Assembly: GCA_945872355.1 (NCBI GenBank)
Contig: CAMBZU010000019.1
Location: 1 to 47,366, forward strand
DNA length: 47,366 bases
Source of the DNA: Chitinophaga pinensis
GTDB lineage: Bacteria; Bacteroidota; Bacteroidia; UBA4408
Direction: 5' to 3'
Every line of letters begins with the position of its first letter. The first letter of the stretch is position 1. Shown here one piece after another: positions 3,642-47,366 of this stretch. The translations under genes and the position numbers were made by a program. Below the pieces are notes generated by a model. That model had not been told where the DNA came from. It saw only the letters and a program-made list of their open reading frames with translations, and did not search any database.

Positions 3642-4364
3642 AGTTTTTGTTTTTTAAGGTTTATAATGTTTTAAATCTGTAATTATTACTCTTCAGTATT
3701 AATAAACTGAAAACATCAATTTTTGTGACAATGAACTCATTTATTAATAAAAACTTTTTCAAGTTTCTATTTTCAACGATTTACTGTAATGAAAAAAACA
3801 TTCAAATAATATTTTTTTGAAATATTGTAACAAATTGAGAGGTGTTAGCTTTTAATATATAAATCTTTAAAAATTACCATTCTATCAAATATCAAAACTG
3901 CATGAGCTTGTAACATTTAAGTTCAGATAGCTAAAAAATAACCTTCCCTTGTTTAGGTTTTCTATATAGATACAACACCGATTTTAATTAATTAATATTA
4001 ATACTTTAAAGCCCTAAATATCATCAGCAACCCAAGAAATCAGTAAGAAACAATCAATTGGTCAGCAAAAAATGTCCTTTATCTAAAAAGGAATTTAATA
4101 GTCCTTATTCACTCTACACATTATTGCATAAGTTGAGCCTATGCCTTTTTGAAAAAATTCAATTAAATCAGGTCTTTACAAAGAATGATGATGCAATGAA
4201 ACAGTTGAATTTGTTCGATTGACAGTTGGACACTAGTGTTTGTAAGTGTAATCGGTATAAGTATGGAATTGATTTTAGAATCCCCAATCTGCAACAAGAA
4301 AAAAATATTAAACCTTTAAAATTAAATAAATCAAAATCTAATCAATCATTAAATACAAAGCAAC
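3642..4364. other. Gene-poor AT-rich gap with one unstarted open frame
   Basis: 723 bases between divergently transcribed paralogues A and B, so promoters for both should lie here. The plus strand holds one 70-codon open frame (4010-4222) ending in QLNLFD, with no ATG at its beginning and only an internal TTG at 4058. Its composition is lysine- and leucine-rich and somewhat protein-like (SLYTLLHKLSLCLFEKI), so it may be the tail of a decayed gene. A longer overlapping frame running to 4423 crosses the start of paralogue B and is a shadow. No RNA gene or clear repeat is seen. Confidence 0.5.
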
Positions 4365-4847
4365 ATGTCAAACTGGAAACAAAACCTTCAAAATTTATTA
4401 CAAATGCACGGAAACTATCCTAAAAAACAATGGTACGACAACCTCTCAAACTGGGCGCGTACATGGGCAAAAAACACTCAGCAAACTGGCTACAAGACGC
4501 ATGTAAGCTCCGGCTACCCTTATAAGGTAGTGATTACTGCCAAGAAGTATGGCATGGACACTACCTCTTTCATCTGCGAGTTGCAGTACAAAATTACTGA
4601 CAATAACCAACCGGCCTTATCTGTAAAAAGCGTGAAGGATTTTAAATTCGAATCCTACATTAAAGCTTGTATGACTGCAGAGGAGAGCGATGAAGATTTG
4701 GTGATGCAATATTACATTTGGGATGAATTTGAGCTCGATGGCGGGGAGGAAATATTTGCCGAGGGCTTTGTGACGGAAACCATTAGGCTGGCTTTCAAAA
4801 GATATCAGGAGTTCAGGAGTTCTTCAGCCAACGGCATCAGTTATTAA
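4365..4847 (+). CDS. Unrecognised family protein, paralogue B of a local trio
   Basis: 160-residue soluble protein, the best-formed member of the trio. Conserved points shared with paralogue C: W-x-x-L-x-x-W-x-x-x-W at residues 23-33, a G-x-x-T-x-V-S-x-x-Y-P-x-x-V segment, the block SFICELQYK, a YIKA segment, an acidic Y-x-W-D block, and a C-terminal V-x-E-T-I-R-L-x-F helix. Its base composition is visibly richer in G and C than that of paralogue A and of the flanking gaps, hinting at a different history. No signal peptide or membrane span is visible. Function unknown. The start ATG follows a long AT-rich leader. Paralogue C lies 245 bases downstream on the same strand, so co-transcription is possible. 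Confidence 0.7.
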   Translation: MSNWKQNLQNLLQMHGNYPKKQWYDNLSNWARTWAKNTQQTGYKTHVSSGYPYKVVITAKKYGMDTTSFICELQYKITDNNQPALSVKSVKDFKFESYIKACMTAEESDEDLVMQYYIWDEFELDGGEEIFAEGFVTETIRLAFKRYQEFRSSSANGISY

Positions 4848-4942
4848 ACAACAAAGATTGTGGTAAACAAATTAAAAACTTAACACGCAAAAACAATGCA
4901 ACAAGTGGTCAAGAAAAAACAGAACGGGAACTATGTTTAAAC

Positions 4943-5074
4943 ATGGTTAAAGCTGCTCACAGAGAGGAAGCAAAGCCTGTCCGCTTTTACGATGGGCGAT
5001 TTCTTTCGCGTGGGGTTGTGTCGCAAAAACATAAAAGTCTAAAGCATGAAAATGCTTGGTTGGCATACGCATAA
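4943..5074 (+). CDS. Possible 43-residue small protein between paralogues B and C
   Basis: An ATG-started frame of 43 codons sits between paralogues B and C and ends 18 bases before the start of C. The product is basic (runs such as QKHKSLKHENAW) with an aromatic centre (RFYDGRFLSRG). A 14-codon frame starting at 4896 ends two bases before it. The G/C content matches the neighbouring genes rather than the gaps. There is no homologue I recognise and no strong ribosome binding site, so it may be non-coding leader for paralogue C. Confidence 0.25.
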   Translation: MVKAAHREEAKPVRFYDGRFLSRGVVSQKHKSLKHENAWLAYA

Positions 5075-6639: not shown

Positions 6640-6755
6640 CTAGGCAAAAAATGTTCAAAACATGTCAGTTACTAGGGTCTCTACACAAACAGTAGTGCCA
6701 ACAAATAAGCTTTTAAGCTACTATAAAACTTATCTAATAACTAACTCAATCCCTG

Positions 6756-7241
6756 TTAGCACAAATTATGAAGAATAAACTGTATTGCTGAATAAAACCC
6801 TATATACATGGCCACTAAACAAATTAAATAAACATAGTGGCTTTTTAGTCTTCTTAGTAATGGTACTTTCATTTGCTGTTTTATTGCGTCATTGAAGATA
6901 GAGACCCTATCACTTTCTACTACATATGCTGGATCTTCTGGGAAATATGGATCACCGCCCTCTATCTCTAAACAAGTTGAAAGATAGCATTCTTCCAATA
7001 TACAGGTTTCTAAAACACTGTTACGTATTTCTAAAACTATCCTTAGATCACGGCAGATAAAAAGAGAGAGAATAAAAGGAAGATGATAGAGAGGTAAATA
7101 ATATTGGACGAAAGCAGCAAAAATAATTGTTGTTGCAATAAAATAAGCGGGGATTCCGCTTGGAAGACTAAAAGTACCAAGAATGTATCCGCTCTTTTTG
7201 TGTTTGTCCAAATAGCCGAGATAGATGTTTGTAATTTCCAT
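6756..7241 (-). CDS. Small hypothetical membrane protein
   Basis: 161 residues with hydrophobic segments at about 28-63 (GIPAYFIATTIIFAAFVQYYLPLYHLPFILSLFI, likely two spans) and at the C-terminus (YVYLICLVAMYIGFYSAIQFI). Between them lies a ~65-residue hydrophilic loop rich in acidic residues and cysteines (ETCILEECYLSTC) with a PYFPEDPAY segment. No signal peptide and no family recognised. It is transcribed in the same direction as the CAP gene 156 bases downstream but has its own copy of the shared 13-bp upstream motif, so the two are probably separate transcripts under common control. Confidence 0.6.
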   Translation of the reverse strand: MEITNIYLGYLDKHKKSGYILGTFSLPSGIPAYFIATTIIFAAFVQYYLPLYHLPFILSLFICRDLRIVLEIRNSVLETCILEECYLSTCLEIEGGDPYFPEDPAYVVESDRVSIFNDAIKQQMKVPLLRRLKSHYVYLICLVAMYIGFYSAIQFILHNLC

Positions 7242-9433: not shown

Positions 9434-10387
9434 ATGTACAATATTATTTACCGAAGTGTAGCTTTATTTTTTATTTTATGTGTGCAAATTGATGCTATTG
9501 CGCAGTTGAGTGATGTTAACGATAGCATTAAGCGGCAATATAAATTTATCAGTACCGAAAAAAACAAATTAGAAGGAGATACTGCTTCTCTGGTGCATTT
9601 TTTTGATAAACTATCACAATTAGAGCAATCTAAAGATAAAAAGGTGGTTGTAGTGCATATTGGTGATTCGCATTTACAGGCCGATCATTATCCGGGTGTA
9701 GTGCGTGTTAACCTTCAAAAACATTTTGGCAACGCTGGTAGAGGGCTTGTTGCCCCATTTAAAGTAGGAAGAACAAATGAGCCTAGCAATTATAAATCCA
9801 GTAGTAACACTAAGTGGCGTGCACGAAGAATTGTAAATGAAAAAGATTCTTTACCAATTGGAATCAGTGGCTTAAGTATAAAAAACGATGATACAAAAAG
9901 TAATTTAATGATTACAACGCTTAACAAGGAGGGACTTGATTATAGCTTTAGTAAGATTACACTTTTTCATCAAAAGGGATTTCAGCATTATAATTTTATT
10001 TTATGCGATAGCTTATCATGTTTTCAGGCCTCAATTGATGCAAAAAAAGATACGCTCGAAGAATTTACAACGGTATATGTTAAACCTGCCAATTGTGTTA
10101 TTTTTAATATCGATCATCTTGATACTTTAACACGTAAAACTGCTCTAATTTATGGTTTGCTTTTAGAAAATGAGCAGCCTGGTGTATTATACAACAACAT
10201 CGGTATCAATGGTGCTGAGTACAGGCATTATAATAAAAATGTAAAATTACAATCACAAATGTCGTTGCTTAACCCCGACCTTATTATTATTTCTTTGGGA
10301 ACAAATGAGGCTTACGCACCAAGGTATAGTAACACTGATTTTTATAAACAGGTAGATTCATTAATTGTAAGCCAAAGTAATTGCTGA
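9434..10387 (+). pseudogene. SGNH-hydrolase-like protein truncated at the C-terminus
   Basis: 317 residues with a signal peptide (cleavage near AIAQ, residue 24). Block I is HIGDSHLQADHYPG (serine 79), the glycine block is NNIGINGAEYRHY, and block III is DLIIISLGTNEAYAPRY. The frame stops 30 residues later in an unrelated-looking end (SQSNC), so the D-x-x-H block V that completes the catalytic site is missing; its upstream partner, a related protein, has it. Relatives usually run to about 450-500 residues. No remainder of the gene is found to the right within the window. The breakpoint falls next to a truncated minus-strand gene, which marks this as the left edge of an insertion or deletion. 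It could still make a stable partial protein, but is unlikely to be an active hydrolase. Confidence 0.65.
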
Positions 10388-10552: not shown

Positions 10553-10912
10553 TTAAGATAAATTTTTCGAAAGATACCACATTTCGGTGCTTATCGCAAA
10601 AAAAATATAAATAAATTCTTCCTTTCTTTTAGAATAATTCTTATTTAAATCATCCTCTGAAAGTGATATAGCCTTCCCTTTTATAGCCACCTTGTTTTTT
10701 ACTTTTAATTTTTGCTGTGCTAGCCATTCTCTCAACTTATCATTTTTATGAATAGTCGGAGCTTCTAGCCATTTGTTAAAGCTTTTGTTAAGAATTAACT
10801 TAAAATAAAGTGGTTGATCGGAAATCCCGAACAACCACTTTAACTCTGACACATTTGGTGAAGGAATGAAAAACGAGTTTAATAAAAACTCGTTTACAAC
10901 ACTTTTACCCAT
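10553..10912 (-). CDS. Hypothetical 119-residue protein at the island edge
   Basis: Soluble protein, no signal peptide; the middle is lysine-rich and basic (LREWLAQQKLKVKNKVAIKG), and the C-terminus is aromatic (FIYIFFAISTEMWYL). No family recognised. It is divergent from the AAA ATPase gene, with 116 bases between the two starts, and the next downstream minus-strand frame is the AbiEi-like fragment, whose start codon touches this gene's stop. That tight join suggests the two were once an operon, possibly a toxin-antitoxin-like or accessory defence unit now damaged. Confidence 0.5.
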   Translation of the reverse strand: MGKSVVNEFLLNSFFIPSPNVSELKWLFGISDQPLYFKLILNKSFNKWLEAPTIHKNDKLREWLAQQKLKVKNKVAIKGKAISLSEDDLNKNYSKRKEEFIYIFFAISTEMWYLSKNLS

Positions 10913-10994
10913 CCATCAATAAAGAAAAGAAGGCCACATTTCACACTTTCAAAAATAATAATCAATCGCGACACAAATTGGCGTTGTGCTCATT

Positions 10995-11002
10995 TACATT
11001 TG
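10995..11002 (+). promoter_or_regulatory. -7 promoter element of the island operon
   Basis: TACATTTG matches TAnnTTTG, 26 bases before the ATG of the AAA ATPase gene; a TTGG at 10979-10982 or TTG at 10984-10986 could serve as the -33 element. The region is shared with the divergent 119-residue gene, so the island's WYL regulator might bind here; no clear palindromic operator was found by eye. Confidence 0.5.
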
Positions 11003-11028
11003 TAGCATAAATCAAAAATACTTGAACT

Positions 11029-12165
11029 ATGCAAACAATTAATTTACCAATCAACGTACCTACTCTTGGCTTGTTTCAACTTGAAAATACCTCTGCAAAA
11101 ATGAATCTTTCAGAGGTGTTCTCAGAGCGAAAAGGTTCCTATTTAAATGAGTTTACCATGTTTGTTGCGCATTTTAATGCTATTCCAAACTGCATTCAAG
11201 AAGAGCATATTGATTGTAGAAAAGCTAATCAATGGTTTGCTGAGCGATTTAGAGCGGAGATTAAAGATTCTTATTATAACAAGCGCGCTTTTAGCAAAAG
11301 CAAAAAGGTGGAACTAGATGATATATTTTACTTTTTGTATGATGATTTAATGATCAACTTTGATACAAATTGTTCCATCGTTCGTTTTTTGTTTCGCAAA
11401 ACCGCTGTATTAAAGGTTGAAGAATTACAAACAGAATTTCTTAAATTCAAAAAAAAGAAGAAAAAGCATATTCCAGAGATTTCACTTTTAGTGAACAGTA
11501 TGGCGGGCATTACAACAGAAAGTTTAAAAATCCTAAAACCTAAATTAAATTTAGAAGATAATTACAATGATGATTTTAAAGACATTCATCGTGCCATTTT
11601 AAAAAGACTTTCACGAAATAATGATAAAGGACTTATTTTACTGCACGGAAAGCCAGGTACAGGCAAGACTTCTTACATCCGTTATTTAGTGGCTTCATTA
11701 AAAAAGGATGTCATTTTTTTACCTCCAAATATGGCTAGTGCTATTACCAACCCTAATTTAATTTCAGTTTTAATCAGTAATCCCAATTCTATTTTTGTAA
11801 TTGAAGATGCAGAAAACATTGTGGTCGATAGAGAAAAGGATGGTAATTCGCCAGTTTCAGCTTTACTGAATATTTCAGATGGATTACTAGCTGACTGTTT
11901 AAATATTCAAATTGTTTGCTCATTCAATACAGATATTTCTAAAATTGATAGTGCCTTAATGCGTAAGGGGCGCTTGATTGCAAAGTATGAGTTCAAAGAA
12001 CTGGAAACAGAAAAGGCACAGAAGTTATCCAATAAATTGGGCTTCAAAACATGTATTGATAAACCAATGTCATTGACTTCGATTTATAATCAGGAGGAGA
12101 AAGATTTTCATGAAGTGAAGAGTAGAAGTAAGGTCGGATTTAGAACAAATTTATTGAGTAATTAA
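11029..12165 (+). CDS. AAA family ATPase, BCS1-like core
   Basis: 378 residues. The AAA core occupies roughly residues 180-335: Walker A GKPGTGKT (207-214), Walker B IFVIEDAE (255-262), sensor-1-like VCSFNTD, and an arginine-finger-like block MRKGRLI (311-317). The layout (aspartate/asparagine-rich second region, then RKGR) resembles BCS1-type AAA proteins. The N-terminal 170 residues form a helical domain with a lysine run (KKKKKK, 141-146) that I do not recognise, probably the substrate or partner-binding part. No signal or membrane segment. First gene of a five-gene operon; the next gene begins 28 bases later. In this setting it is likely to power a nucleic-acid or protein remodelling step. 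Similar stand-alone ATPases exist in Bacteroidota, so the gene might also have a life outside the island. Confidence 0.8.
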   Translation: MQTINLPINVPTLGLFQLENTSAKMNLSEVFSERKGSYLNEFTMFVAHFNAIPNCIQEEHIDCRKANQWFAERFRAEIKDSYYNKRAFSKSKKVELDDIFYFLYDDLMINFDTNCSIVRFLFRKTAVLKVEELQTEFLKFKKKKKKHIPEISLLVNSMAGITTESLKILKPKLNLEDNYNDDFKDIHRAILKRLSRNNDKGLILLHGKPGTGKTSYIRYLVASLKKDVIFLPPNMASAITNPNLISVLISNPNSIFVIEDAENIVVDREKDGNSPVSALLNISDGLLADCLNIQIVCSFNTDISKIDSALMRKGRLIAKYEFKELETEKAQKLSNKLGFKTCIDKPMSLTSIYNQEEKDFHEVKSRSKVGFRTNLLSN

Positions 12166-12193
12166 TTCCACAACATATTAAAAAGTAAGTAAC

Positions 12194-12577
12194 ATGGGAT
12201 CTTTAATAGAAATCAAATTAAATGGTAAAAGTGCAAATTTGCAAGTGCCTGCCTTACAGTTGAAACACTCCTTAATGTATAGCCTTTTTTCTTCAAAAAG
12301 TTTTCAAGAAAACATAGAAGAAGAGGTGTTGAGGATACATGCTGATCTTGATATTTTAAATGGGGTAATTTCTACAGATATTGCTGAATTAGCAAGAATA
12401 TGCAGAATTGCAAAAAATGAAAAAGAAATGACTGAAATTTTAGCCACTGAACTTAATCTTAATAAAAGTCAGGCGGAGTACATAGCAAATCTTGAATTAG
12501 ATGATTTGATCAATTTAGACTTCAAGAAGATTAAATATCATTTAGAGTTATGTATAATTTTTTTGCAAAAAAGATAA
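12194..12577 (+). CDS. Small protein resembling the GyrA/ParC coiled-coil gate segment
   Basis: 127 residues. Residues about 45-120 follow the sequence pattern of the type IIA topoisomerase A-subunit C-gate region: a helix like LRIHADLDILNGVISTDIAE (GyrA: A-H-I-L-E-G-L-x-x-A-x-x-x-I-D-x-V-I), then a spacer and LATELNLNKSQAEYIANLEL followed by DDLINLDFKKI (GyrA: F-x-L-S-E-x-Q-A-x-A-I-L-x-M-R-L-x-x-L-x-x-L-E). The catalytic tyrosine domain and the rest of GyrA are absent, so this cannot cleave DNA as a topoisomerase. The N-terminal 40 residues are a short strand/helix (IEIKLNGKSANLQV). It may be a dimerisation or DNA-clamp part of the island's complex, or a gyrase-targeting factor. The similarity is visual only. 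Its stop codon overlaps the next start by one base (TAATG), indicating coupled translation. Confidence 0.6.
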   Translation: MGSLIEIKLNGKSANLQVPALQLKHSLMYSLFSSKSFQENIEEEVLRIHADLDILNGVISTDIAELARICRIAKNEKEMTEILATELNLNKSQAEYIANLELDDLINLDFKKIKYHLELCIIFLQKR

Positions 12578-13062
12578 TGAACAGTAATTCTTATACAGCA
12601 ATAGATTTTGAAACCGCCCAAGGCAAACGTTGGAGCATTTGTCAGGTGGGTTTAGTTCGGGTAGAAAACAACATAATTACTGAACAATTATCAATTTTGG
12701 TTCAACCACCAGATAATTATTACTGGGATAGATTTATTGATATACATGGAATCACACCGGAACAAACAGCAGATGCGCCAACATTTGGTGTAGTTTGGCA
12801 TCAAATCGAGCCATACATCAAAAATCAACACGTTGTTGCACACAATGGCTTTGGTTTTGATTTCCATTGTTTAAAGCAAACTTTGGAATTCTACGGCCTT
12901 GCAAATCCAGTGTTTACAGGTCATTGCACTTATCAAATTTTCAAAGATAATTTGGCTTCACTTTGTGTGAAATATAATATACCTTTGAATCACCATGATG
13001 CGTTGAGTGATGCAAATGCTTGTTCAGAATTATTTAAAATTAATTTAGCCAATAAAAAATAG
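12577..13062 (+). CDS. DEDDh-type 3'-5' exonuclease (DnaQ-like)
   Basis: 161 residues from the ATG at 12577; a longer frame opens at 12550 but that would overlap the previous gene by 28 bases, and the TAATG junction favours this start. All exonuclease motifs are visible: Exo I AIDFET with D10 and E12, Exo II VVAHNGFGFDFHCL with D95, and Exo III HHDALSDA with H140 and D145, which makes it the DEDDh subgroup of the DnaQ / epsilon-proofreading type, with two metal ions. The length is that of a bare catalytic domain. The likely reaction is removal of 3' nucleotides from single-stranded DNA or RNA. Such exonucleases are frequent in defence operons beside a main nuclease. The DUF262 gene follows after 3 bases. 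Confidence 0.85.
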   Translation: MNSNSYTAIDFETAQGKRWSICQVGLVRVENNIITEQLSILVQPPDNYYWDRFIDIHGITPEQTADAPTFGVVWHQIEPYIKNQHVVAHNGFGFDFHCLKQTLEFYGLANPVFTGHCTYQIFKDNLASLCVKYNIPLNHHDALSDANACSELFKINLANKK

Positions 13063-13065
13063 CAC

Positions 13066-14892
13066 ATGGAACCAAACAAATCATTTTCAATCATTGCCAA
13101 AACTTGCACATTAAAATACAACTCACAAAAAAATGGAGAAACAATTTTTGGAGACAATATCAAATATATAATACCCATTTATCAGCGATCCTATTCATGG
13201 ACTGACGAACAGATTAGAAAATTTTTATCCGATATTTTTTTAGGCTACTGGGGCAGTGACGGAAATATAATTAAAGAGCCAATGTTCATAGGAACAATGC
13301 AATTAGCGGAGAAGGATTTAGAAAGAAAAGAGCAGCAAGTTATTGATGGACAACAGCGCCTGACAACTTTTCTACTTCTTTTGAAAATATTAAAAATGGA
13401 ATTTCCTGATTGCATAGAATTAGCATCCATTCACTTTGATTGGCTTGAAACAAAAGTCAATAGCGGAACACAGCAAAATGATTTAAATCAATTATTATCA
13501 TTCAACACATTTGAAGAATTTAATTCGAATCTAAATATCTATGTAAACAACGCATTGTATATAAGGAATATTCTGAGTGAGCTAATTGCAGAAGGAGAAA
13601 ATGTTTCTGAGAATGAAACCGAAGAGCAGTTCAATGCTGATGATTTTACTAATTATATTCTTAGCAAGATTTATTTTGTAGTTATTGAAACGCATGCTTC
13701 ATTGTCCAAAACACTACAGATATTTAATGCAATAAATACCACAGGACTTGACTTAAATGGTGGCGACATTTTCAAATTAAAAATGTATGAATATTTATGT
13801 GACCAAAACAAGGAGGCAAATGAAGAAACTAAAATAAAATTCTTTGAACAGATAAGCGGAATCTACGAAAAGATTGACACAAAGAACAAAGAGCTTGGTT
13901 GGGTTACGGATATTTTTGGAGTTTTAGAAATGTATAAATACATTCTGGTTGCAAAATATGATTTGCCAAAGACACTTTATTTTTATGAAACCAATAGATT
14001 TTTTGAAGAGTTATTTGATACCATCTCAAATACAAATAGATGGGATAATTTTAAAAGTATAAAAGAAAAAGGGCTAACTCTTTCCTTAATTGAATTGGAA
14101 GAAATAATTCAATCAAGATTTCAATGGCATTTAATTTACAAGAGCGTTCCAACCGCAGAAGACGCTTGTTCATGGCATTTTATTTGGTGGTCAAGATATA
14201 GTCGCTATCACATTTTAGTGTATTTGTTTACCTACAAATTTAATACAGAAGAAGATTTTAATTCAAAACTTTTTTTATTCAAAAGACAGCTAAGCAAGTT
14301 ATTTATTATTTATAGCATCCGTTTCCAAAAGCTAAAAAGTGAGATTTATTATTCATTTATGTATGAGGTATTGGATACAATGATGAACAAATCATCAGAA
14401 GAATTGATTAAACTGATTAATTCCAAAATTGGTAAAGTTGAAGACCATAAAGGTTGGTATGACATTGAGACTATTTTGAATGGAGACATAACTTACAACG
14501 CAAAACTTAAAAACATCGTTTGTAGGGTTTCCGCTATGCTAGAGGAAGACTACACTTCCAGTGATATGAAAATATGCAATAATTTATTCCAGTTACCCAT
14601 TGACATTGAGCATATTCAATCCTACCACGATAGCAATGGAGATAAAAGAGATGACATTTGGAATGAGTGGGGAGATGATATAAATTCTATTGGTAACCTC
14701 ATGATTTTGGAACAAGATAAAAATAGGTCTATTAGTAATAATCTGTATGAGTTTAAGACAAAAGTTTACCCAACAAGTATATATGGCATTGTAAAAAAGC
14801 AAGCTACTAACTATTCAGATTGGTCCATAGATAAATGTCGTGAAAGAAAGATAGTAGAAGTAAATAAAATTCTAAATTACTTATTCAATTAA
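13066..14892 (+). CDS. GmrSD-type DUF262/DUF1524 nuclease
   Basis: 608-residue single polypeptide with both halves of the GmrS/GmrD restriction system. The N-terminal DUF262 (ParB-like NTPase/nuclease fold) shows IPIYQRSYSW at 36-45 with the invariant Q-R, FIGTMQL (74-80), and VIDGQQRLTT at 92-101. The C-terminal DUF1524 His-Me (HNH) nuclease shows IEHIQS with H516, then SIGNLMIL and DKNRSISN with N544 and N553, and K564. GmrSD enzymes cut modified (glucosylated 5-hydroxymethylcytosine) phage DNA using NTP hydrolysis; whether this protein needs modified DNA is not known. It is preceded by the exonuclease after 3 bases, and its stop overlaps the WYL gene start (TAATG). Alone, this gene would be a type IV-like restriction enzyme; here it sits inside a larger operon. 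Confidence 0.9.
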   Translation: MEPNKSFSIIAKTCTLKYNSQKNGETIFGDNIKYIIPIYQRSYSWTDEQIRKFLSDIFLGYWGSDGNIIKEPMFIGTMQLAEKDLERKEQQVIDGQQRLTTFLLLLKILKMEFPDCIELASIHFDWLETKVNSGTQQNDLNQLLSFNTFEEFNSNLNIYVNNALYIRNILSELIAEGENVSENETEEQFNADDFTNYILSKIYFVVIETHASLSKTLQIFNAINTTGLDLNGGDIFKLKMYEYLCDQNKEANEETKIKFFEQISGIYEKIDTKNKELGWVTDIFGVLEMYKYILVAKYDLPKTLYFYETNRFFEELFDTISNTNRWDNFKSIKEKGLTLSLIELEEIIQSRFQWHLIYKSVPTAEDACSWHFIWWSRYSRYHILVYLFTYKFNTEEDFNSKLFLFKRQLSKLFIIYSIRFQKLKSEIYYSFMYEVLDTMMNKSSEELIKLINSKIGKVEDHKGWYDIETILNGDITYNAKLKNIVCRVSAMLEEDYTSSDMKICNNLFQLPIDIEHIQSYHDSNGDKRDDIWNEWGDDINSIGNLMILEQDKNRSISNNLYEFKTKVYPTSIYGIVKKQATNYSDWSIDKCRERKIVEVNKILNYLFN

Positions 14893-15809
14893 TGTCAAAA
14901 CGAGGCTACATATCGCGCTACTTGCTTATTCTTAAAAAGCTCAAAGTAAATCCATATTCATCTTATGAGGCATTGAAAGCCTATATGGAAAATCAATTTG
15001 AATATATGCAAATGCAAGATGATCATTTGCAAATAGGTTTTTCAAAGCGAACGCTGCAAAGAGATTTAAAGGAAATTAGAAACTTGTTTGGAATTGATAT
15101 TGAATATTCAAAACCGTATAGGGGATATTTTATTACCCAAAATGAAAATGAAAACATGAATTTTCAGCGGATGATGGAAGCTTTTGATATGTTTAATTCA
15201 CTTAATTTGGCGCAAGATTTAACTCCTTTTATTCACTTAGAAAATCGAAAGCCACAGGGAACTGAGAATTTATATGGATTACTCCATGCCATTAAAAACA
15301 GGTTTAATATCAAATTTACCTATCATAAATTTTGGGATGAAGAATTTAGTCAACGAACAGTTGAGCCCTTAGCTTTAAAGGAATTTAAAAATCGCTGGTA
15401 TATCATAGCCAAAGACTGTAAAGACGATACTATTAAAAGTTTCGCGCTCGACCGTTTATCAAATCTCGAAATTACAAACCAAACTTTTCTGTATCCTGCA
15501 AACTATAGCATTGAAGAAAGTTATCGTTATTGTTTTGGTATTGAAAGCCCAAATGGTAAGGAGCCTCAAGACATTATTTTGTCTTTTGACCCTTTACAGG
15601 GTAAGTATATTAAAACATTGCCCTTGCATCACACACAGGAAGTTTTAGTTGACAATGAAGAAGAAATGAAAATCAAACTTAAGCTTTGTTTAACGCATGA
15701 CTTTTTAATGGAATTATTATCTTTTGGAGATAACCTGGCGGTGATTGAACCAAAATCATTAATTAAAAAAATAAAGCAAGCATATAAAAGTGCTTATCAT
15801 CTTTATTAA
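14892..15809 (+). CDS. WYL-domain transcriptional regulator
   Basis: 305 residues. The N-terminal winged helix-turn-helix (about 1-80) contains a recognition helix SKRTLQRDLKEIRNLFGI. A WYL domain (about 130-200) follows, with FTYHKFW, RTVEPLALKEFKNRWYIIAK and FALDRLSNLE, the R/K-W-Y-x-x-A pattern of ligand-sensing WYL proteins. The C-terminal 100 residues match the WCX extension that regulates such proteins. WYL regulators of the BrxR/CapW kind repress defence operons until infection-linked nucleotides or single-stranded ends bind; by position this one probably controls the operon it closes. It overlaps the DUF262 stop by one base. The gene is followed by a 438-base non-coding stretch holding a dispersed repeat. 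Confidence 0.85.
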   Translation: MSKRGYISRYLLILKKLKVNPYSSYEALKAYMENQFEYMQMQDDHLQIGFSKRTLQRDLKEIRNLFGIDIEYSKPYRGYFITQNENENMNFQRMMEAFDMFNSLNLAQDLTPFIHLENRKPQGTENLYGLLHAIKNRFNIKFTYHKFWDEEFSQRTVEPLALKEFKNRWYIIAKDCKDDTIKSFALDRLSNLEITNQTFLYPANYSIEESYRYCFGIESPNGKEPQDIILSFDPLQGKYIKTLPLHHTQEVLVDNEEEMKIKLKLCLTHDFLMELLSFGDNLAVIEPKSLIKKIKQAYKSAYHLY

Positions 15810-15825
15810 AACCCAGCTTACCTTC

Positions 15826-16064
15826 GTAAAAGCGAAGCTGTGCTTCGTTTTCCTTTAATTTAGCAAGTTTCACTTGCGTGGAAATGGTTTAAATGCTATT
15901 ATTGAATTGCAAGCTTTTAAATGATTTATTACAATTAAATAATAGAGATTGCAGTGCAATACTATTTCTTGGAGTAGTTAGTTTTGGGATTTAAAAAAAT
16001 GACTCGCGCATGAGCATCAACAAGCTCAAATGCTAGCATGATATTAAATGGCTATGAAGCCGAG
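15826..16064 (+). repeat. Two-hairpin dispersed repeat, copy 1
   Basis: This sequence is homologous to copy 2 at 38677-38852. It begins with two perfect hairpins: CGAAGC-TGT-GCTTCG (15833-15847) and GCAAGT-TTC-ACTTGC (15863-15877), joined by a TTTAATTTA linker, and ends with the shared block GCTATGAAGCCGAG (16051-16064). The outer ends are strongly alike and the middle has diverged in length and sequence. No open frame. The remainder of the 15810-16247 gap is AT-rich without features. Likely a small non-autonomous palindromic element; no transposase is near it. Confidence 0.55.
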
Positions 16065-38878: not shown

Positions 38879-41800
38879 TTACCTCAGTAAGGTCAGATAA
38901 AACAATTTGTCGAAAGGTAGTTTTGAACTAAATGTAGCCCTAGCCTTAACCAAGTATGATCCTTGTGGTAAGTCTTTATCACGGTACTTACCATCCCAAA
39001 AATCAGTTGGTCTACCTTCTTGATCTATTTTGTCTGTAAACCAAACTCTCTCGCCCCAAGGAGAAAAAATTTCAATCCTTAAAGTTTCTATATTTTTTCC
39101 CTTGGGAATGAATCGGGCTATTTCAGGGTCATCACTGCTCGGTGATAAAGCATTAGGTAAAACTAGCAAACCATCACAAAATACATCTATTATTTGAGTA
39201 CTGTTATTTTTACACCCATAAATATTTTCTACCAATAAGCTTACAAGGTATTGTCCGTTGTTATCATAAAAAACATTTGGTTTGATAGATGTTGATGATG
39301 AACCGTTTCCAAAGTCCCACCAAAATAATTTATCTGTTACCTTATATTCGGGAATTAAAGAAAAATAACCGGCACAGGGCGAAATAGCCATGCCATTAAT
39401 CATTGTATCAATTGGATTGACAGTGAATGTTGCTATAGGTGCCTCATCTACAATAATAGATGTTGAGGCTGTATCGAAACAAGTTGAATCAAAAGCAGAG
39501 AAGGCAATGATGCCAATATCAATAATACCTGGAATATCGTGGCTTAATACATAGGATGCTAAATTGCCAATCGTTGAACCATTCAAACTCCAAGTTACCG
39601 ATCCTGTAAAAATAGAATTATTAGTCAAAGAAAATTCCTCTCCCTCACAAACCCTATCAGGTGCAACAATCACTGCAATAGGCTTTATCACAACTTCTAT
39701 TTGTTGATTGGAAGTATCAGGGCAATTATAACTATTATTTGCTATCAATGTGGCAGTAAATGAAGTAGGCGTGGAGAAATTTAATGGTATTGGTGTCTGG
39801 AGGTTTGACGTTCCCTGACCATTAAAATTCCAGAGATAATTATTGCTTTGAGAGGATAAGTTTGTAAAGGTAATCTCCACCGATGGCGCGCATGGTGGCA
39901 GTTGATTGTAATTAAAATTTGAAATAGCATTTGGCCTTATATATATCATATTGAAACTTGTGTCATCCCAACATTGATTACTATCATTTACCCTCAAAAT
40001 AAACGAATATGTTCCGGTATCTTGAAAGGTCTGATTAACCTGACTTCCTAAAATGATTGTACCATCACTAAAGGCCCATTCATAATTGAGTCCTATGGCA
40101 GTTGCCGCATTAAGTGAGATTGGGCTGCCTAAACAAACTTCATTGTCTATAATGCTAAAATCAGCCACGGGATTATGCAACACCGTTATTGGTAAAGTTA
40201 ATGAGTCCTTACACATTGTGGAGGCAGATGTAACAGTTAGAGTTACATTAAACGTTGTGGTGTTATTGCTGGGAAGATTATACAAATGGCCCGGACTAAA
40301 CACTGATGAGTATTCACCATCGCCAAAATTCCAATAATAAAAATTATTGTTGCCAGGTGAGAGGTTATTGAAGATTGCACTATCTCGACTGCAGATGGGA
40401 TTTGAAAAACTAAATAAAGGTTGTGGGTTAGGAAATATTGTTACCGGTCTAGATATTGAGTCAATTCCACAGAATCCATAAACAACTTGCCATACCGTGT
40501 AAGTTCCAGGATTTGAATAAGTATGATACGGCAGCGTATCAATAGAATTTGGACCATCACCATAGCGCCAAATAATATAATTATAGCTAGGAACTGCACT
40601 GTTAAAATAAATTGTTTGACCCATGCAGGCAAAAGACGAATCAACTGTAAAGAAAGGATAAACATCTGCTGGATGCACTGTTATTGGGACTGATATCGAA
40701 ACAGTGTCACATATATTCGAGGCTGAGAGTGTAACAATATAAACAGAATCAGTAAGGTTTGCGGTGAACGTGTAGGGTAAGGGATTGTTAGCAGTTGAGA
40801 TTAAACTCCCATTTACAAACCACTCGTAAGAGAGATCGTACCCAAAAGAGATATTGCTGAAGCTCACCGGAACTCCTGAGCAAACCGTTTGCGGATAAAA
40901 GGCAAAATTGGGCAATGGAAAGGAAAATAAGTTGATAGTATCTTGAAAAGTATCAATTCCGCATAAATTAGATGCCGTTAGGAGAACAACAAAGGAAGTA
41001 TCAACCGAGTTTCCTATATCAAAAGTTACAGGCAAAGGATTAATATCAGTGCTAGTTACACCGTTGTCAAAATCCCAAGAATAAGTTGAATACTGAGAAA
41101 TTGATGTGTTGGTAAACGTTATAAGCTGCTGGCCACAGGATGATACTTGGTTGTCAATAAATGAAGCAGAAGGCGGTTCAGCAATTATGAGCGGCTGTAT
41201 CAAGGAGTCTAAACAACCCTCATTACTTGTAACAATCAAACTAACATTAACTGTATCAGCAAAAATATAAGTATGAGTAGGTTGCTGAGTAGCAGATGTA
41301 TTTGAATCGCCAAAATCCCAATTGTATGAATTGTTTCCTGCGGTATTGTTTATGAATTGAACCGGAGCGTTAATGCAAGCGATAGAAACAGTAGTGAATG
41401 AAACTACAGGTAGGGGATGCACATAGGCAATAAGCGTATCATAATTGACACATCCTGTAAGAGATGATTGAAATTCATATAGTAGCTGGCTTGAAGTTCC
41501 TGGAGTAATTAGTGAGGGATCAAAAATACCCGTTGTTTGATTGGTAATTCCCAAACCTGACCATAAGCCACCCGAAATATTGGACTGAAGCGTTGCGGGC
41601 AAATCACTAATGCAGAAGTTTAAATCAGGTCCTATTGCAACTAAAGGCAAAGGATTAACTATTACAATTAAGGTATCTTGGGTAAGGCAGGAGCCAGCAC
41701 CTACAGAAAAAATCATGTTGAACATACCAGTTGTATCAGGTGTAAATAATCCTGTTGAGTCAACAATAATTCCGTTCCAGTAACCTAAGGGAGAGTTTCC

Positions 41801-44800
41801 ATTTAGTTGAACCGAATTGTTTGAGAAGCAAATTGATTGATTCATGCCAGCATTCGCCTGCAGTGGATTCTGTATACTAGCAATCATTGTATCGCTGTTA
41901 ATACACCCATTTCCGTCAGTGTATGTATATAACAGATTAAAACTACCAACACCTGCAAGGCCGGGATTGAAAGTAGGAGAATTAACCGGAGTAGGATTAA
42001 CTCCTATACCTGACCAAATACCACCCGATGGTGAAAATCCTGCGAGGGACTCAGGTATATTCTGATTGCAATATGTTTGATCTAATCCGGCACTCACATT
42101 TGGAAGCGGATTTACTTGAATCATTATCGAATCTGCTCCTGAACAGGTATTAGCATCAGTTGCATCAACAAATATATAGCCAGTATTAACAGGAATTAGT
42201 GTTACTATAGGTCCTGATGCTAGCAATAAACCATTCTGTCCGTACCAATTATAAACCAATGCACCCAATCCATTAAGTTGCACGGAGTCGCCAATACATA
42301 TGGTACTTTGGGGTGAGGTAATATCAACGTTAGGAATAGGATTTACAACTACTTGAATAGTATCTGAAACAAGACATGAGCCTGAGCCAGTAGTATAGGT
42401 TAAAATATGTGTGCCAACACCTGCTATTGATGGATTAAATATTGATCCTGCAATACCAACGCCAGACCATGTTCCTGAGACAGGCGTGGCACCTGTTAGC
42501 GTAACAATAGAAGAGTTGAGACAAATAGAAAAACCATTTCCTGCATTTACAGTTGTTGGTGAACTTACTGTGATCTGAATGTCATCTTGGTTTGCGCAGC
42601 CGTTCCCATCGGTAAATGTATATGTAAGTGTAAAAGTTCCATTGCCTGCTACAGATGGAGTAAATATACCTGCAGAAGTAACTCCCGAGCCGGTCCATGT
42701 GCCACCAAGCGGAGTGTATCCGGTTAATGTTTGTGGAATATTTTGATTGCAAAAACTTAAATCTGAACCTGCATTTACGGTTGGTAGCAGATTAACAATT
42801 ATTGAAACATTTGCAGATGAAGTACATCCATTAGAAGCAGTTCCTGTTACATTGTAGGATGAGCTTGATAAAGGAGTAGCTATAACACTTGCGCCTGATG
42901 ATGAGTTTAAAGTGGCAGAAGGCGACCAAACATAAGTGTTTGCGCCACTTGCAGTTAATGTAGATGATTGACCAACACAAATTGTTGTGGGAATTGATGT
43001 AGCATTTACCGTTGGATTTGGCAATACAACTACTTGAATGGTATCTGAAATAAGACATGATCCCGCCCCAGCAGAAAAGGTTAAAATATGCATGCCAATA
43101 CCAGCTATTGAAGGATTAAACATTGACCCTGCAATACCAACACCAGACCAAGCTCCAGAAATAGGCGTGGCACCAGTTAACGTAACAGGAGAAGAGTTGA
43201 AACAAATCGAAAAACCATTTCCTGCATTTACAGTTGTTGGTGAGCTAACATTTACTTGAATATTATCAGTATTCGCACAACCATTTCCATCGGTAAATGT
43301 ATAGGTAAGTGTAAAAGTTCCATTGCCAGCCACAGATGGAGTAAATATACCTGCAGAAGTAACTCCCGAGCCGGTCCATGTGCCACCAAGTGGGTTGTAT
43401 CCGGTTAATGTTTGTGGAATGTTTTGATTGCAAAAACTTAAATCTGAACCTGCATTTACGGTTGGTAACGGATTAACATTTATTGAAACATTTGCAGATG
43501 AAGTACATCCATTAGTAGCAGTTCCTGTTACGTTGTAGGATGAGCTTGACAAAGGAGTTGCTATAACACTTGCACCTGTTGATGAATTTAAAGTGGAAGA
43601 AGGAGTCCAAACATAAGTGTTTGCGCCACTTGCGGTTAATGTAGTTGATTGACCAACACAAATTGTTGTGGGAATTGATGTGGCACTTACCGTTGGATTT
43701 GGCAATACAACTACTTGAATGGTATCTGAAATAAGACATGAGCCCGCCCCAGCAGAAAAGGTTAAAATATGCATGCCAATACCAGCTATTGAAGGATTAA
43801 ACATTGACCCTGCAATACCAACACCAGACCATGCTCCAGAAATAGGCGTGGCACCAGTTAACGTAACAGGAGAAGAGTTGAAACAAATCGAAAAACCATT
43901 TCCTGCATTTACAGTTGTTGGAGAGCTAACATTTACTTGAATATTATCAGTATTTGCACAACCGTTCCCATCGGTATAGGTATAGGTAAGTGTAAAAGTT
44001 CCATTGCCAGCCACAGATGGAGTAAATATACCTGCAGAAGTAACTCCCGAGCCGGTCCATGTGCCACCAAGCGGAGTGTATCCGGTTAAAGTTTGCTGTA
44101 TGTTTTGATTGCAAAAACTTAAATCTGAACCAGCATTTACGATGGGAAGCGGATTAACATTTACTGTTACATTGGCAGTTGAGGTGCATCCGTTAACTGC
44201 TGTGCCAGTTACAGTATAGGATGTGCTTGATAAAGGAATAGCTATAACACTTGCACCTGTTGGTGAGTTTAAAGTGGAAGAAGGCGACCAAACATAAGTG
44301 TTTGCTCCACTTGCAGTTAATGTAGATGATTGACCAACACAAATTGTTGGAGGATTGCTCACTACATTTAAAATAGGAGTTGGAATAACATTAACAGTAG
44401 CTGTGGCAGCAGAAGTACATCCAATGGATGATGTGCCGATTACAGTATAAACTGTAGACGAAGTAGGATTAGCTATTACATTTGATCCAGTAGTGGTATT
44501 CAAATTTGTGGCAGGCGACCATGAATAAGTTGCAGCTCCAGAGGCACTGATATTGGCGCTTTGGCCTGTGCATATTGTAGTATTAGATGGATTTACACTA
44601 ACCACTGGAAACGGGGATACATTAATTGTTTGCGAATTACTTGCGCTTCCACATATATTAGAAACACTAAGTGAAATTAAAAAATTACCTGGTGTTGCAT
44701 AGCTAATTGAAGGTGGTACCTGCAAGTTTGAGCTTGATGGATTGCCACTTGGAAAAGTCCAATTGTAATTTGTAATAGCACTGCCACAATTATTTATTAT

Positions 44801-46690
44801 TGCTGAGGGGCTAATGTTGGCACCTGCACATATTCCAAGCACAGGGTTCACTGTAACCTGAGGAGGCCGATTAACTGTTACAACTTGTGATGTTGAAAAT
44901 GTGCCACATGGATTAATAACATTGAGGGTAATAGTATAGTTCCCAGCGTTGTTGAAAATAAATGATGGATTTTGAGAGGCGGCATTTGTACCTCCTGTAA
45001 AATTAAAGGAAGCTGTATTGTCGCATGAGCTGCTAGCAGCATAGGTAACCACCCAATTATAGGTATTATTTCCACAGGGAGGTGCGGCTGTATTATTTGT
45101 TGTTGAGCAATTGAAAGGTATGCATCCTAAATTGTTACTTAATGTAAATGCAGGAATGGGTGGATTTATAATACAAATACTTTGCGTAAGTGTATCAACC
45201 CCACAATTAAGACCACTTGCAGACATACTTATTTGATAGGTACCTGCTTGATTAAAAATAATACCCAACGTGCTGCTGCCCCAATAAGTGCTATTATTAA
45301 AAATTACAGGAAACTGTCCGAGTGCTCCCGTAGAAACTGTCCAACCGATCGCAGGGGTTATAGTCCAACTTATGTGCACTGTAGAGTCACATACCGATGA
45401 TCCAACTGAAGAGGCTGGAAGGCTTGTATTTTGGAATGTAACAACTTGATTAACACAAGCTACTGGCGCAGGATTAATTGAAAAATTAGCCTCTGCCTTC
45501 TCCGATATTTTAATTGGAGAAATCGTAGCGCTTGATACATCGCAAGGATTGATTGCTCTCAATTGAGCTTGGAATGAATTGTTGTTTCCTTGGGAACTTA
45601 TTCCACAACTAGAGGATGTAAATAAATGTGAGATTGATGACGGTAATGAGCTTTGGGTATACGTTATAGGATTGCTGCCATCATTAATTAAAAATTCATA
45701 GGTCGTGCCCGGTGTGTTTGCAGCTGCAAGAACCAAATTAATAGGAAAACTAAAGGCTACAGGCGCGCAACCATTTGTTCCACCTGGATTACCTAAACCA
45801 ACTGATGGATTACTGCCGTAATAATAAGAATAGATGGTGGTATCATTACAGCCATTTGGAGTAGTTAGCGTTAGCAAAATATTGTAAGAACCCGGTAAAT
45901 TGTATGTGTGGGAAGTGTTGGTAAGTGTTGAAGCAGAATAATTAGCACTACCATCGCCCCAATTAATTTGATAATTATTTACACTGGTATTAAAACTTGA
46001 TATGTTAGAAACTGATATAGCGCTTGGCGTGGGGTTTAATGCTGAAAAGCTACAGTCAGTTGTGCCAAATCCGGTTAAAGCTCCTTGTGGCCTATTTTGC
46101 ACAGTAACATTTTGTGTCAAAGTTGCAGAGCAGCCTGCTGCATTTGTTACTGTAAGTGATACAGGAAATGATTGTGTTCCAGGTAAACCATAGGCATTGA
46201 ATTGATAAGCAGGAGATACTAAAGTAGAATTGCCTACCCCGCCAAAACTCCATAAATATGAATTACCATTGCCTGTTGTAGTGTTATTGAATTGTACTGG
46301 TGTATTTGAACAGCTATTATTTGTGAATGAAAATGCTGGGTTAGGAGTGGCGCCAACAGGAACATTCAATGAAATGGAGTCTCTGCAGTTTGGATTAATA
46401 AAGACCCCAACCAGCCAAACTGTATAATTTCCTGCTGCCGCATAAATATGTGTTTGACTTGTGTTATTGCCGGTGGTAGTTATTTGGCCATCTCCCCAGC
46501 GCCAAATAAATATATTTGGATTTGTGCCTGTAGAGTTATTGGCAAAATTAACAGCCACACCTGCACATACAGGGCTGGTTGTAACATTAAAAGCGACTGA
46601 AGAACCTCCGCAACTGTAGGCACTTTTAGCCATTAAAACATAACAGCATATCAACATTATCTTTATTAAACCAACTATTCTGTGCATCAT
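38879..46690 (-). CDS. Giant PKD-repeat adhesin with gliding-type T9SS C-terminal domain
   Basis: 2603 residues starting at the ATG at 46690; a frame opening at a TTG (46708) is disfavoured because the ATG overlaps the stop of the upstream PorP/SprF gene by 4 bases (ATGA). A signal peptide (IVGLIKIMLICCYVLMAKSAYS) precedes many PKD-type domains with repeated WRWGDG, YIWDFGDG-like and HIYAAAGNYTV segments. The C-terminal ~90 residues are a gliding-motility-associated (CHU_C, type B) domain: ALSPSSDDPEIARFIPKG, IEIFSPWGERVWFT, DFWDGKYRDKDLPQGSYLV. The middle holds three near-identical 227-residue units. SprB-type adhesins use such architecture for surface movement or attachment. It is probably co-transcribed with the PorP/SprF gene. 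Confidence 0.93.
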   Translation of the reverse strand: MMHRIVGLIKIMLICCYVLMAKSAYSCGGSSVAFNVTTSPVCAGVAVNFANNSTGTNPNIFIWRWGDGQITTTGNNTSQTHIYAAAGNYTVWLVGVFINPNCRDSISLNVPVGATPNPAFSFTNNSCSNTPVQFNNTTTGNGNSYLWSFGGVGNSTLVSPAYQFNAYGLPGTQSFPVSLTVTNAAGCSATLTQNVTVQNRPQGALTGFGTTDCSFSALNPTPSAISVSNISSFNTSVNNYQINWGDGSANYSASTLTNTSHTYNLPGSYNILLTLTTPNGCNDTTIYSYYYGSNPSVGLGNPGGTNGCAPVAFSFPINLVLAAANTPGTTYEFLINDGSNPITYTQSSLPSSISHLFTSSSCGISSQGNNNSFQAQLRAINPCDVSSATISPIKISEKAEANFSINPAPVACVNQVVTFQNTSLPASSVGSSVCDSTVHISWTITPAIGWTVSTGALGQFPVIFNNSTYWGSSTLGIIFNQAGTYQISMSASGLNCGVDTLTQSICIINPPIPAFTLSNNLGCIPFNCSTTNNTAAPPCGNNTYNWVVTYAASSSCDNTASFNFTGGTNAASQNPSFIFNNAGNYTITLNVINPCGTFSTSQVVTVNRPPQVTVNPVLGICAGANISPSAIINNCGSAITNYNWTFPSGNPSSSNLQVPPSISYATPGNFLISLSVSNICGSASNSQTINVSPFPVVSVNPSNTTICTGQSANISASGAATYSWSPATNLNTTTGSNVIANPTSSTVYTVIGTSSIGCTSAATATVNVIPTPILNVVSNPPTICVGQSSTLTASGANTYVWSPSSTLNSPTGASVIAIPLSSTSYTVTGTAVNGCTSTANVTVNVNPLPIVNAGSDLSFCNQNIQQTLTGYTPLGGTWTGSGVTSAGIFTPSVAGNGTFTLTYTYTDGNGCANTDNIQVNVSSPTTVNAGNGFSICFNSSPVTLTGATPISGAWSGVGIAGSMFNPSIAGIGMHILTFSAGAGSCLISDTIQVVVLPNPTVSATSIPTTICVGQSTTLTASGANTYVWTPSSTLNSSTGASVIATPLSSSSYNVTGTATNGCTSSANVSINVNPLPTVNAGSDLSFCNQNIPQTLTGYNPLGGTWTGSGVTSAGIFTPSVAGNGTFTLTYTFTDGNGCANTDNIQVNVSSPTTVNAGNGFSICFNSSPVTLTGATPISGAWSGVGIAGSMFNPSIAGIGMHILTFSAGAGSCLISDTIQVVVLPNPTVNATSIPTTICVGQSSTLTASGANTYVWSPSATLNSSSGASVIATPLSSSSYNVTGTASNGCTSSANVSIIVNLLPTVNAGSDLSFCNQNIPQTLTGYTPLGGTWTGSGVTSAGIFTPSVAGNGTFTLTYTFTDGNGCANQDDIQITVSSPTTVNAGNGFSICLNSSIVTLTGATPVSGTWSGVGIAGSIFNPSIAGVGTHILTYTTGSGSCLVSDTIQVVVNPIPNVDITSPQSTICIGDSVQLNGLGALVYNWYGQNGLLLASGPIVTLIPVNTGYIFVDATDANTCSGADSIMIQVNPLPNVSAGLDQTYCNQNIPESLAGFSPSGGIWSGIGVNPTPVNSPTFNPGLAGVGSFNLLYTYTDGNGCINSDTMIASIQNPLQANAGMNQSICFSNNSVQLNGNSPLGYWNGIIVDSTGLFTPDTTGMFNMIFSVGAGSCLTQDTLIVIVNPLPLVAIGPDLNFCISDLPATLQSNISGGLWSGLGITNQTTGIFDPSLITPGTSSQLLYEFQSSLTGCVNYDTLIAYVHPLPVVSFTTVSIACINAPVQFINNTAGNNSYNWDFGDSNTSATQQPTHTYIFADTVNVSLIVTSNEGCLDSLIQPLIIAEPPSASFIDNQVSSCGQQLITFTNTSISQYSTYSWDFDNGVTSTDINPLPVTFDIGNSVDTSFVVLLTASNLCGIDTFQDTINLFSFPLPNFAFYPQTVCSGVPVSFSNISFGYDLSYEWFVNGSLISTANNPLPYTFTANLTDSVYIVTLSASNICDTVSISVPITVHPADVYPFFTVDSSFACMGQTIYFNSAVPSYNYIIWRYGDGPNSIDTLPYHTYSNPGTYTVWQVVYGFCGIDSISRPVTIFPNPQPLFSFSNPICSRDSAIFNNLSPGNNNFYYWNFGDGEYSSVFSPGHLYNLPSNNTTTFNVTLTVTSASTMCKDSLTLPITVLHNPVADFSIIDNEVCLGSPISLNAATAIGLNYEWAFSDGTIILGSQVNQTFQDTGTYSFILRVNDSNQCWDDTSFNMIYIRPNAISNFNYNQLPPCAPSVEITFTNLSSQSNNYLWNFNGQGTSNLQTPIPLNFSTPTSFTATLIANNSYNCPDTSNQQIEVVIKPIAVIVAPDRVCEGEEFSLTNNSIFTGSVTWSLNGSTIGNLASYVLSHDIPGIIDIGIIAFSAFDSTCFDTASTSIIVDEAPIATFTVNPIDTMINGMAISPCAGYFSLIPEYKVTDKLFWWDFGNGSSSTSIKPNVFYDNNGQYLVSLLVENIYGCKNNSTQIIDVFCDGLLVLPNALSPSSDDPEIARFIPKGKNIETLRIEIFSPWGERVWFTDKIDQEGRPTDFWDGKYRDKDLPQGSYLVKARATFSSKLPFDKLFYLTLLR
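42340..44390 (-). repeat. Three tandem 681-bp units inside the adhesin gene
   Basis: Corresponding points recur every 681 bases (for instance TGTTACATTGTAGGATGAGC-type sequence at about 42.85, 43.53 and 44.21 kb), equal to 227 codons, so the frame is kept. Each unit encodes SDLSFCNQNIPQTLTGYTPL, SSPTTVNAGNGFSICFNSS, and TTICVGQSSTLTASGANTYV segments. The first two units are closest to each other, and the edges have diverged, showing recent duplication or gene conversion. Confidence 0.9.
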
Positions 46691-47366
46691 ATGATAAAAC
46701 TTGGACAACCTGTTGTTATTAAATTACATCCTTTATTTCTAGAAAATTTAAATCCTATCTGTAGTGAACCAAAACGATTTACGAATGGCGAAATACCAAT
46801 GCCGGTAATAACAGATGCGTAGCTGATGTAAAATTTGGTTAAAAACAAATCTCTACCTATTTCCTTCCTTTTTGTATACATGTTTGCTGTAAAAATAAGT
46901 GAGTTAATATTTCTCGACCACTTACCAATGTTATGGCTAGTTCCTGTAACAGTAAATGCAATTTGAGGATTTATAAAAAAATTTATACCTGCCATATATC
47001 TTCTTACAGGTTGTTGCTTTTCATATTGAACAAAAATTTCCTTATGTAGGTTGTTTTTATTGAGCAAGGAAAATGTCATGACTTGGTATCTTGGTAGCAC
47101 AACATTTTGGTTTTGCACGATAAAACTTGCCTCAGTTGGTTTGTCATTGCCTGTTGATTGCATATGGTGCATTGAATAGCAAAAGTTACCAATCCAAAAA
47201 TCGTTGTTAAAAATGAACAACTTGCTTATAGGAAACTGAATAGCCACACTGCCCCCAAAATCGGGTTTAGTTACACTTTGAAAAAGTTCTGGATTGGCTG
47301 TGCTTATAGGGTTTTGGGTCCAATCAACAATTTGTTTTGAAAAAATCATCTCGCCATTATTAATTG
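46687..47366 (-). CDS. PorP/SprF family type IX secretion system membrane protein (partial)
   Basis: C-terminal ~226 residues of an outer-membrane protein; the frame stays open to the window edge, so the N-terminus and any signal peptide lie outside. It is strand-rich with alternating hydrophobic and polar residues, including FGGSVAIQFPISKLF, FWIGNFCYSMHHM, MAGINFFINPQIAFTV and GIGISPFVNRFGSLQIGFKF, which is the pattern of the PorP/SprF family. SprF-like proteins are needed for secretion of particular T9SS type B cargo encoded next to them. Its stop codon overlaps the adhesin start (ATGA), which ties the two together. Confidence 0.85.
   Translation of the reverse strand, partial: INNGEMIFSKQIVDWTQNPISTANPELFQSVTKPDFGGSVAIQFPISKLFIFNNDFWIGNFCYSMHHMQSTGNDKPTEASFIVQNQNVVLPRYQVMTFSLLNKNNLHKEIFVQYEKQQPVRRYMAGINFFINPQIAFTVTGTSHNIGKWSRNINSLIFTANMYTKRKEIGRDLFLTKFYISYASVITGIGISPFVNRFGSLQIGFKFSRNKGCNLITTGCPSFII

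Follow-up and report, generated by a model that had tools for sequence, protein, structure and literature searches.

A probable mobile, WYL-controlled defence cassette of modular design in Bacteroidota

GmrSD, BrxU, SspE, and DndI are anti-phage nucleases composed of DUF262 and DUF1524 domains. In enzymes of the GmrSD family, DUF1524 nicks or cuts DNA in a reaction coupled to the hydrolysis of nucleoside triphosphates (NTPs) by DUF262; the targets are modified phage DNA, or the enzymes respond to phosphorothioate marks (PMC10952713, PMC8565348, PMC11662687). The binding sites of the WYL regulators BrxR and CapW are inverted repeats at the promoters of defence operons (PMC9122601, PMC9122588). 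Both kinds of protein are encoded in a 47,366-nt stretch of contig CAMBZU010000019.1, assigned to Chitinophaga pinensis (the whole stretch is referred to below as the window), in which five plus-strand genes, from an ATPase to a WYL regulator, fill positions 11029-15809 (Table 1). Judged from sequence, this operon is probably a mobile defence cassette, transcribed as one unit under WYL control, that follows a modular design found in Bacteroidota and resembles type IV restriction.

The initial annotation of the window described five closely packed plus-strand genes with short gaps or overlaps, and the coordinates of the open reading frames (ORFs) confirm it: the first and third junctions are gaps of 28 and 3 bases, and the second and fourth are TAATG overlaps. 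For four of the genes, the profile searches that it had proposed confirmed the AAA, RNase_T, GmrSD_N/GmrSD_C, and WYL families, and its view of GmrSD, a DnaQ-type exonuclease, and a WYL regulator as defence-type parts is supported. The residues that it had singled out, D10 of the exonuclease and H516 of GmrSD, were right, and both motifs are intact.

Table 1. Features of the operon and its left flank (window positions)
Feature	Position	Strand	Evidence or remark
Operator-like dyad GCGACAY-N3-TTGGCGT, window sequence GCGACACAAATTGGCGT	10968..10984	+	half-sites RCGMCA-N5-TGKCGY
-7 element TACATTTG	10995..11002	+	fits TAnnTTTG, 10 bp after dyad; spacing identical in 31 sites (duplicate loci included)
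Bcs1-like AAA ATPase, 378 aa	11029..12165	+	Pfam AAA PF00004 6e-11; Bcs1 by profile and fold
127-aa protein, variable small-gene slot	12194..12577	+	weak GyrA/ParC coiled-coil similarity
DEDDh 3'-5' exonuclease, 161 aa	12577..13062	+	Pfam RNase_T 1e-15; catalytic residues
GmrSD (DUF262-DUF1524) nuclease, 608 aa	13066..14892	+	GmrSD_N 6e-29, GmrSD_C 3e-14; DGQQR, EHI intact
WYL-WCX regulator, N-terminal winged helix-turn-helix (HTH), 305 aa	14892..15809	+	Pfam WYL 1e-14, WCX 9e-07
Terminator-like hairpin	15829..15851	+	20 bases past last stop; z = -3.1
Truncated GDSL hydrolase copy, left border of inserted region	9434..10387	+	homology to complete copy
AbiEi antitoxin gene relic, 33 residues	10454..10552	-	67% identity, E 2e-12

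Constant frame and exchangeable slots

A DEDDh profile scan of 84,980 species genomes yielded 80 loci (numbered with the prefix L below), 55 of which have at least 4 kb on both sides. Within 6.5 kb and on the same strand as the exonuclease gene, these 55 loci contain a WYL gene in 39 cases, a nuclease gene in 37, an AAA gene in 30, and none of the three in 9, counts that are descriptive only. The nuclease-bearing loci include 28 with GmrSD/DUF262 proteins and 10 with PD-(D/E)XK_4 proteins, some having both. In ten related cassette loci, identity to the window proteins is 63-76% for the AAA ATPase, 69-82% for the DEDDh exonuclease, and 71-83% for the WYL regulator, and the exonuclease catalytic residues D10, E12, D95, H140, and D145, all intact in the window, are invariant in ten members. 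The neighbourhood search across Bacteroidota suggested by the initial annotation thus finds AAA, DEDDh, and WYL genes recurring together, and its concern that the ATPase might be unrelated to the nuclease part in relatives is answered, since the two recur together as well.

The division into constant and variable parts is best seen in the same-genus genome G003 (L014 = L062), where a cassette with the order AAA - 99-aa protein - DEDDh - other GmrSD - WYL occupies a different genomic site. Its AAA, DEDDh, and WYL proteins are 73, 82, and 82% identical to those of the window, whereas the GmrSD proteins share 33% and are alignable over 87 aa only. DNA homology between the two loci falls into three blocks, namely from the operator (starting exactly at 10968) to near the AAA end, DEDDh, and WYL, and is lost over both the small-gene slot and the nuclease slot. 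The gene set is not confined to the window: at least three further loci (L062, L071, and L113) have the same order of gene types (AAA - small gene - DEDDh - GmrSD - WYL), and others have the extended version AAA - 99-aa repeat protein - DEDDh - GmrSD - DUF262 - WYL (L063, L065, L066, and L083; L079 likewise, with a broken WYL frame). Other layouts are WYL - DEDDh - GmrSD - DUF262 - longer AAA (L098 and L103) and PD-(D/E)XK - AAA - DEDDh - WYL (L128). As reconstructed here, the constant frame is composed of the operator, a Bcs1-like (or longer) AAA ATPase, the DEDDh exonuclease, and the WYL regulator, and the variable slots hold the small protein and the nuclease.

The window nuclease carries DUF262 and DUF1524 in a single protein, both above the Pfam cut-off, with DGQQR at residues 94-98 and EHI at 515-517; by domains and motifs it is of the GmrSD type, and NTP-dependent cleavage of modified DNA is predicted. 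Its nearest relatives (L038, 52%; L135, 42%) both stand in cassettes with a DEDDh gene, and no relative was found with the GmrSD query against the genome contigs. The nucleases of L038 and L135 have an N-terminal extension of 134-139 residues (encoded at 3856-4272 and 4669-5070, respectively) that lacks a Pfam match, is absent from the window protein, and by eye resembles a PUA/EVE-type reader; a match of the 127-aa gene to this extension was rejected on comparison. In other relatives the slot contains an unrelated GmrSD, either by itself or accompanied by another DUF262 protein, or else a PD-(D/E)XK_4 nuclease, which matches the PADLOC candidate PDC-S26 at 1e-103.

Such free exchange for unrelated families is cargo-like, and the window GmrSD is closer to nucleases of other architectures (L038 and L135) than to those beside the nearest ATPases. 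These observations would fit an island whose genes share a regulator and form a regulon rather than one machine, with GmrSD a self-sufficient type IV enzyme and the exonuclease and ATPase accessory or separate; the fused GmrSD-type enzymes BrxU and DndI do act as single polypeptides (PMC8565348, PMC11662687). We find this explanation doubtful, as the DEDDh gene is retained in the frame whatever the nuclease and adjoins three separate lineages of the window GmrSD clade, and several relatives have translational gene overlaps.

The small-gene slot between AAA and DEDDh is occupied in relatives by a triple-repeat protein of 99-100 aa or a double zinc ribbon of 76-84 aa. The former is more than 90% conserved among cassettes whose nucleases are unrelated. 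It consists of three near-identical beta-type repeats (GSLIEVYDEKCKRISYMS; positions 6703-7002 in both L062 and L063, and others). The zinc-ribbon protein, MANYYCEYCG..SSVSSLT..C.RHPNG..KGKHKLYEGSEKSQYVCKYCG..., recurs in cassettes and varies at a few positions that adjoin cysteines, and its gene lies just upstream of or near DEDDh in L068, L076, L086, L090, L091, L112, L121, and L128. Concerted change of its two repeats, striking by eye, was rejected on the averages (0.66 within; 0.69 and 0.64 between).

The 127-aa gene of the window is similar to GyrA/ParC below threshold in Pfam (E = 0.0019, 17.6 bits against a cut-off of 31) and to NCBIfam PRK05561, a full-length model, at 1.2e-5 (24 bits against a cut-off of 654), so that neither Pfam nor NCBIfam gives a match to a gyrase/topoisomerase A segment at the curated cut-offs. 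The fold prediction was poor, with a predicted local distance difference test (pLDDT) value of 47, too low for a fold search, and no relatives were found in 395 genomes of the class, viral contigs, plasmids, or the cassette set. The initial annotation had taken this gyrase-like gene for a defining member; it was found in the window only, relatives carrying unrelated small genes or none, and by these comparisons it is outside the conserved gene set.

The exonuclease gene has a further in-frame ATG upstream, at 12550, which is unsupported as a start because the relatives begin at the second ATG. With respect to the ATPase, solo copies in L015, L042, and L044 were at first counted as cassette members and then rejected, because WYL, DEDDh, and the operator are all missing there. 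The genome of the window also has another AAA gene of the family (39%) at G000:C38 (L016, 7314-9474), diverging from another WYL gene; this pair is without DEDDh, nuclease, or dyad. Jumbo Pseudomonas phages of the PA5oct group (e.g., LC727698 and MK797984) encode a relative of the ATPase domain that is 41% identical.

Promoter region and WYL regulator

Upstream of the ATPase gene, the sequence GCGACA[CT]-N3-TTGGCGT is invariant in 13 aligned regions preceding AAA-headed cassettes, the -7 box alone being otherwise noteworthy. The Bacteroidota -7 promoter consensus is TAnnTTTG; the 10-base distance from the dyad to a T(A/T)nnTTTG element is constant (Table 1), and the start position chosen in the initial annotation, 10995, is the first base of this element. 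A scan for E. coli-type promoters gave fewer matches than in shuffled sequences. The hairpin downstream of the last gene is by itself a pattern no rarer than chance, its position being the telling part. A promoter-like element upstream and a terminator-like hairpin downstream make up a complete transcription unit, and the single promoter proposed in the initial annotation is supported.

The dyad copy at 10968 is the sole match in the window at up to two mismatches (0.30 expected). The element also heads cassettes beginning with a longer AAA gene (L104, L106, and L038), with DEDDh (L027, L117, and L137), or with a 202-aa gene without known function (L120), the copies in L038, L117, L137, and L120 departing slightly from the consensus. 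Among the loci found by the ATPase, it is present in 5/5 with a close WYL gene and 0/21 without (Fisher, 1.5e-5). Since it heads cassettes whichever gene comes first and is absent from ATPase copies without WYL, the dyad is probably the WYL operator; as such an element, GCGACAY-N3-TTGGCGT is previously unreported. The dyad is imperfect, and its half-site arrangement fits a dimeric winged HTH regulator. In the regulator itself, WYL and WCX domains were matched, and the HTH match is weak (0.049).

Tight WYL control, comparable to that of CBASS by CapW (PMC9122588), would also suit an abortive infection system, in which the ATPase and the small protein sense infection, the host chromosome is then degraded by the nuclease and exonuclease, and the WYL protein keeps the operon silent. 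The cassette encodes no modification enzyme, and in the presence of unmarked DNA, DndI harms the cell that produces it (PMC11662687). Nevertheless, GmrSD-type enzymes usually discriminate by DNA modification and do not require protection of the host, and we consider abortive infection unlikely.

Flanking regions and transfer between genomes

Consistent with the mobile cassette proposed in the initial annotation, insertion sites differ, near-identical and relaxase-linked copies exist, and the flanks are damaged. Two cassettes, one from Parapedobacter defluvii (L063) and the other from an unrelated metagenome-assembled genome (L065), share 99.9% identity over 7478 bases, and their surroundings do not resemble each other. 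Genes for MobC and a relaxase (at 4898-6602 in L086) directly precede the cassettes L086, L088, and L090, which suggests carriage by mobilisable elements; cassettes with such genes ahead of them occur in Myroides, Sphingobacterium, and Chryseobacterium. Some contigs named Limnohabitans, Phycisphaerales, and Rickettsiales with cassettes of the same type are maybe mis-binned and were left out of the host range. The operator scan of viral contigs gave 78 matches, about the chance level, none beside a cassette gene.

In the window, the similarity of the truncated GDSL gene to a complete 420-aa copy elsewhere in the genome stops at residue 313, near 10366, the last quarter being lost. The AbiEi relic matches the gene after WYL in the same-genus cassette, where an intact abiEi-abiEii pair is found. 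The operon had thus been correctly described as standing beside damaged genes. On the right, the order of an acyltransferase gene and the genes that follow it is conserved in the same-genus genome G001, but not in G002 or G003. Damaged left flank and gene order together point to an operon located within an inserted, partly decayed stretch.

This mobility bears on a role outside defence, with the operon serving DNA repair or housekeeping. Responses to DNA damage also employ enzymes of the DEDDh type, AAA ATPases, and regulators with WYL domains (e.g., SiwR, PMC10693628). The patchy distribution (DEDDh genes at E up to 1e-30 in 21/395 class genomes), the swapping of nucleases of restriction type, the transfer of cassettes across distant records, the AbiE neighbour, and the relaxase-linked copies make such a role highly improbable.

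Two further ORFs lie on the minus strand of the window. One, of 119 aa (10553-10912), has no family match or relative found and may be a degenerate gene that belonged to the AbiE-linked stretch; the other is an open frame of 2609 aa (38879-46708).

Proposed mechanism and comparison with known systems

If the operon is a defence cassette, the WYL protein would bind the dyad and adjust transcription upon sensing an infection product. Recognition of foreign, probably modified, DNA would fall to GmrSD under the gating of NTP hydrolysis in DUF262, and its HNH-type domain would nick or cut that DNA; the DEDDh enzyme would resect from the nicks, preventing repair. Loading or remodelling of the nuclease complex may be the task of the ATPase, possibly assisted by the small protein. 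Nick-then-resect is the simplest reading of a DEDDh gene alongside whatever nuclease type, and the small protein, being the most variable, is a candidate recognition or adaptor part.

Several observations weigh against this interpretation. The dyad occupies the place of the -33 element, so that repression and activation are both possible, and the exact dyad is missing from many of the cassettes that start with WYL, whose WYL proteins are more distant. The ATPase family is common outside the cassette and also present in jumbo phages, and the nearest exonucleases also stand alone, at 9/55 loci. Because the sample was centred on cassette-like exonucleases and includes near-duplicates, its counts favour the frame.

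A stronger version of the defence interpretation, which we put forward tentatively, is that Bacteroidota have a widespread modular immune system, so far undescribed, with its own operator and constant ATPase-exonuclease-WYL frame, in which unrelated, exchangeable nucleases and small proteins (with double zinc ribbons, with triple beta-type repeats, or, here, with a gyrase-like hairpin) would serve as recognition and cutting modules. If the modular cassette reading is right, type IV-like restriction in Bacteroidota comes as interchangeable cassettes that share a regulator and an operator, whose sequence is a simple genome-wide marker for new nuclease families, and nuclease swaps within a fixed frame open a direct way to test what the ATPase, exonuclease, and small protein do.

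The initial annotation knew of no described system with this gene set, and we found none named in PADLOC 2.0.0 (2023), where no system joins AAA, DEDDh, nuclease, and WYL and matches are single-part or generic only; no paper describing the set was found among the open-access full texts searched, preprints and subscription papers being outside the scope. Of the PADLOC candidates, HEC-06/Orf5 resemble the window GmrSD, PDC-S26 resembles the alternative nuclease, and PDC-S48 resembles the exonuclease, but these are separate candidate parts, with no model uniting the four components.

By sequence profile (best PDB matches) and by fold (top Foldseek matches; model mean pLDDT 77), the ATPase is nearest to Bcs1, although identity is low (14-17%) and TM-scores are modest (0.34-0.45); a mitochondrial-type role is not expected. 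With the type IV restriction enzymes GmrSD and BrxU, the window nuclease shares the DUF262-DUF1524 fusion, DGQQR, and the HNH-type EHI motif, but its gene is embedded among those for AAA, DEDDh, and WYL in one operon, and sequence similarity is low. SspE and DndI, the effectors of phosphorothioate systems, have the same two domains and provide the best PDB sequence matches (6jiv and 9jfl, ~1e-8), whereas the similarity is confined to about 90 N-terminal residues; there are no dnd/ssp genes among the cassette genes or immediate flanks, the rest of the genome not having been searched. The regulator resembles BrxR and CapW in being a winged HTH-WYL-WCX protein linked to defence genes, with a dyad at the operon promoter, but differs in that the WYL gene is the last of the operon in the window and its nearest relatives, and in that the dyad, its putative binding site, is a new sequence.

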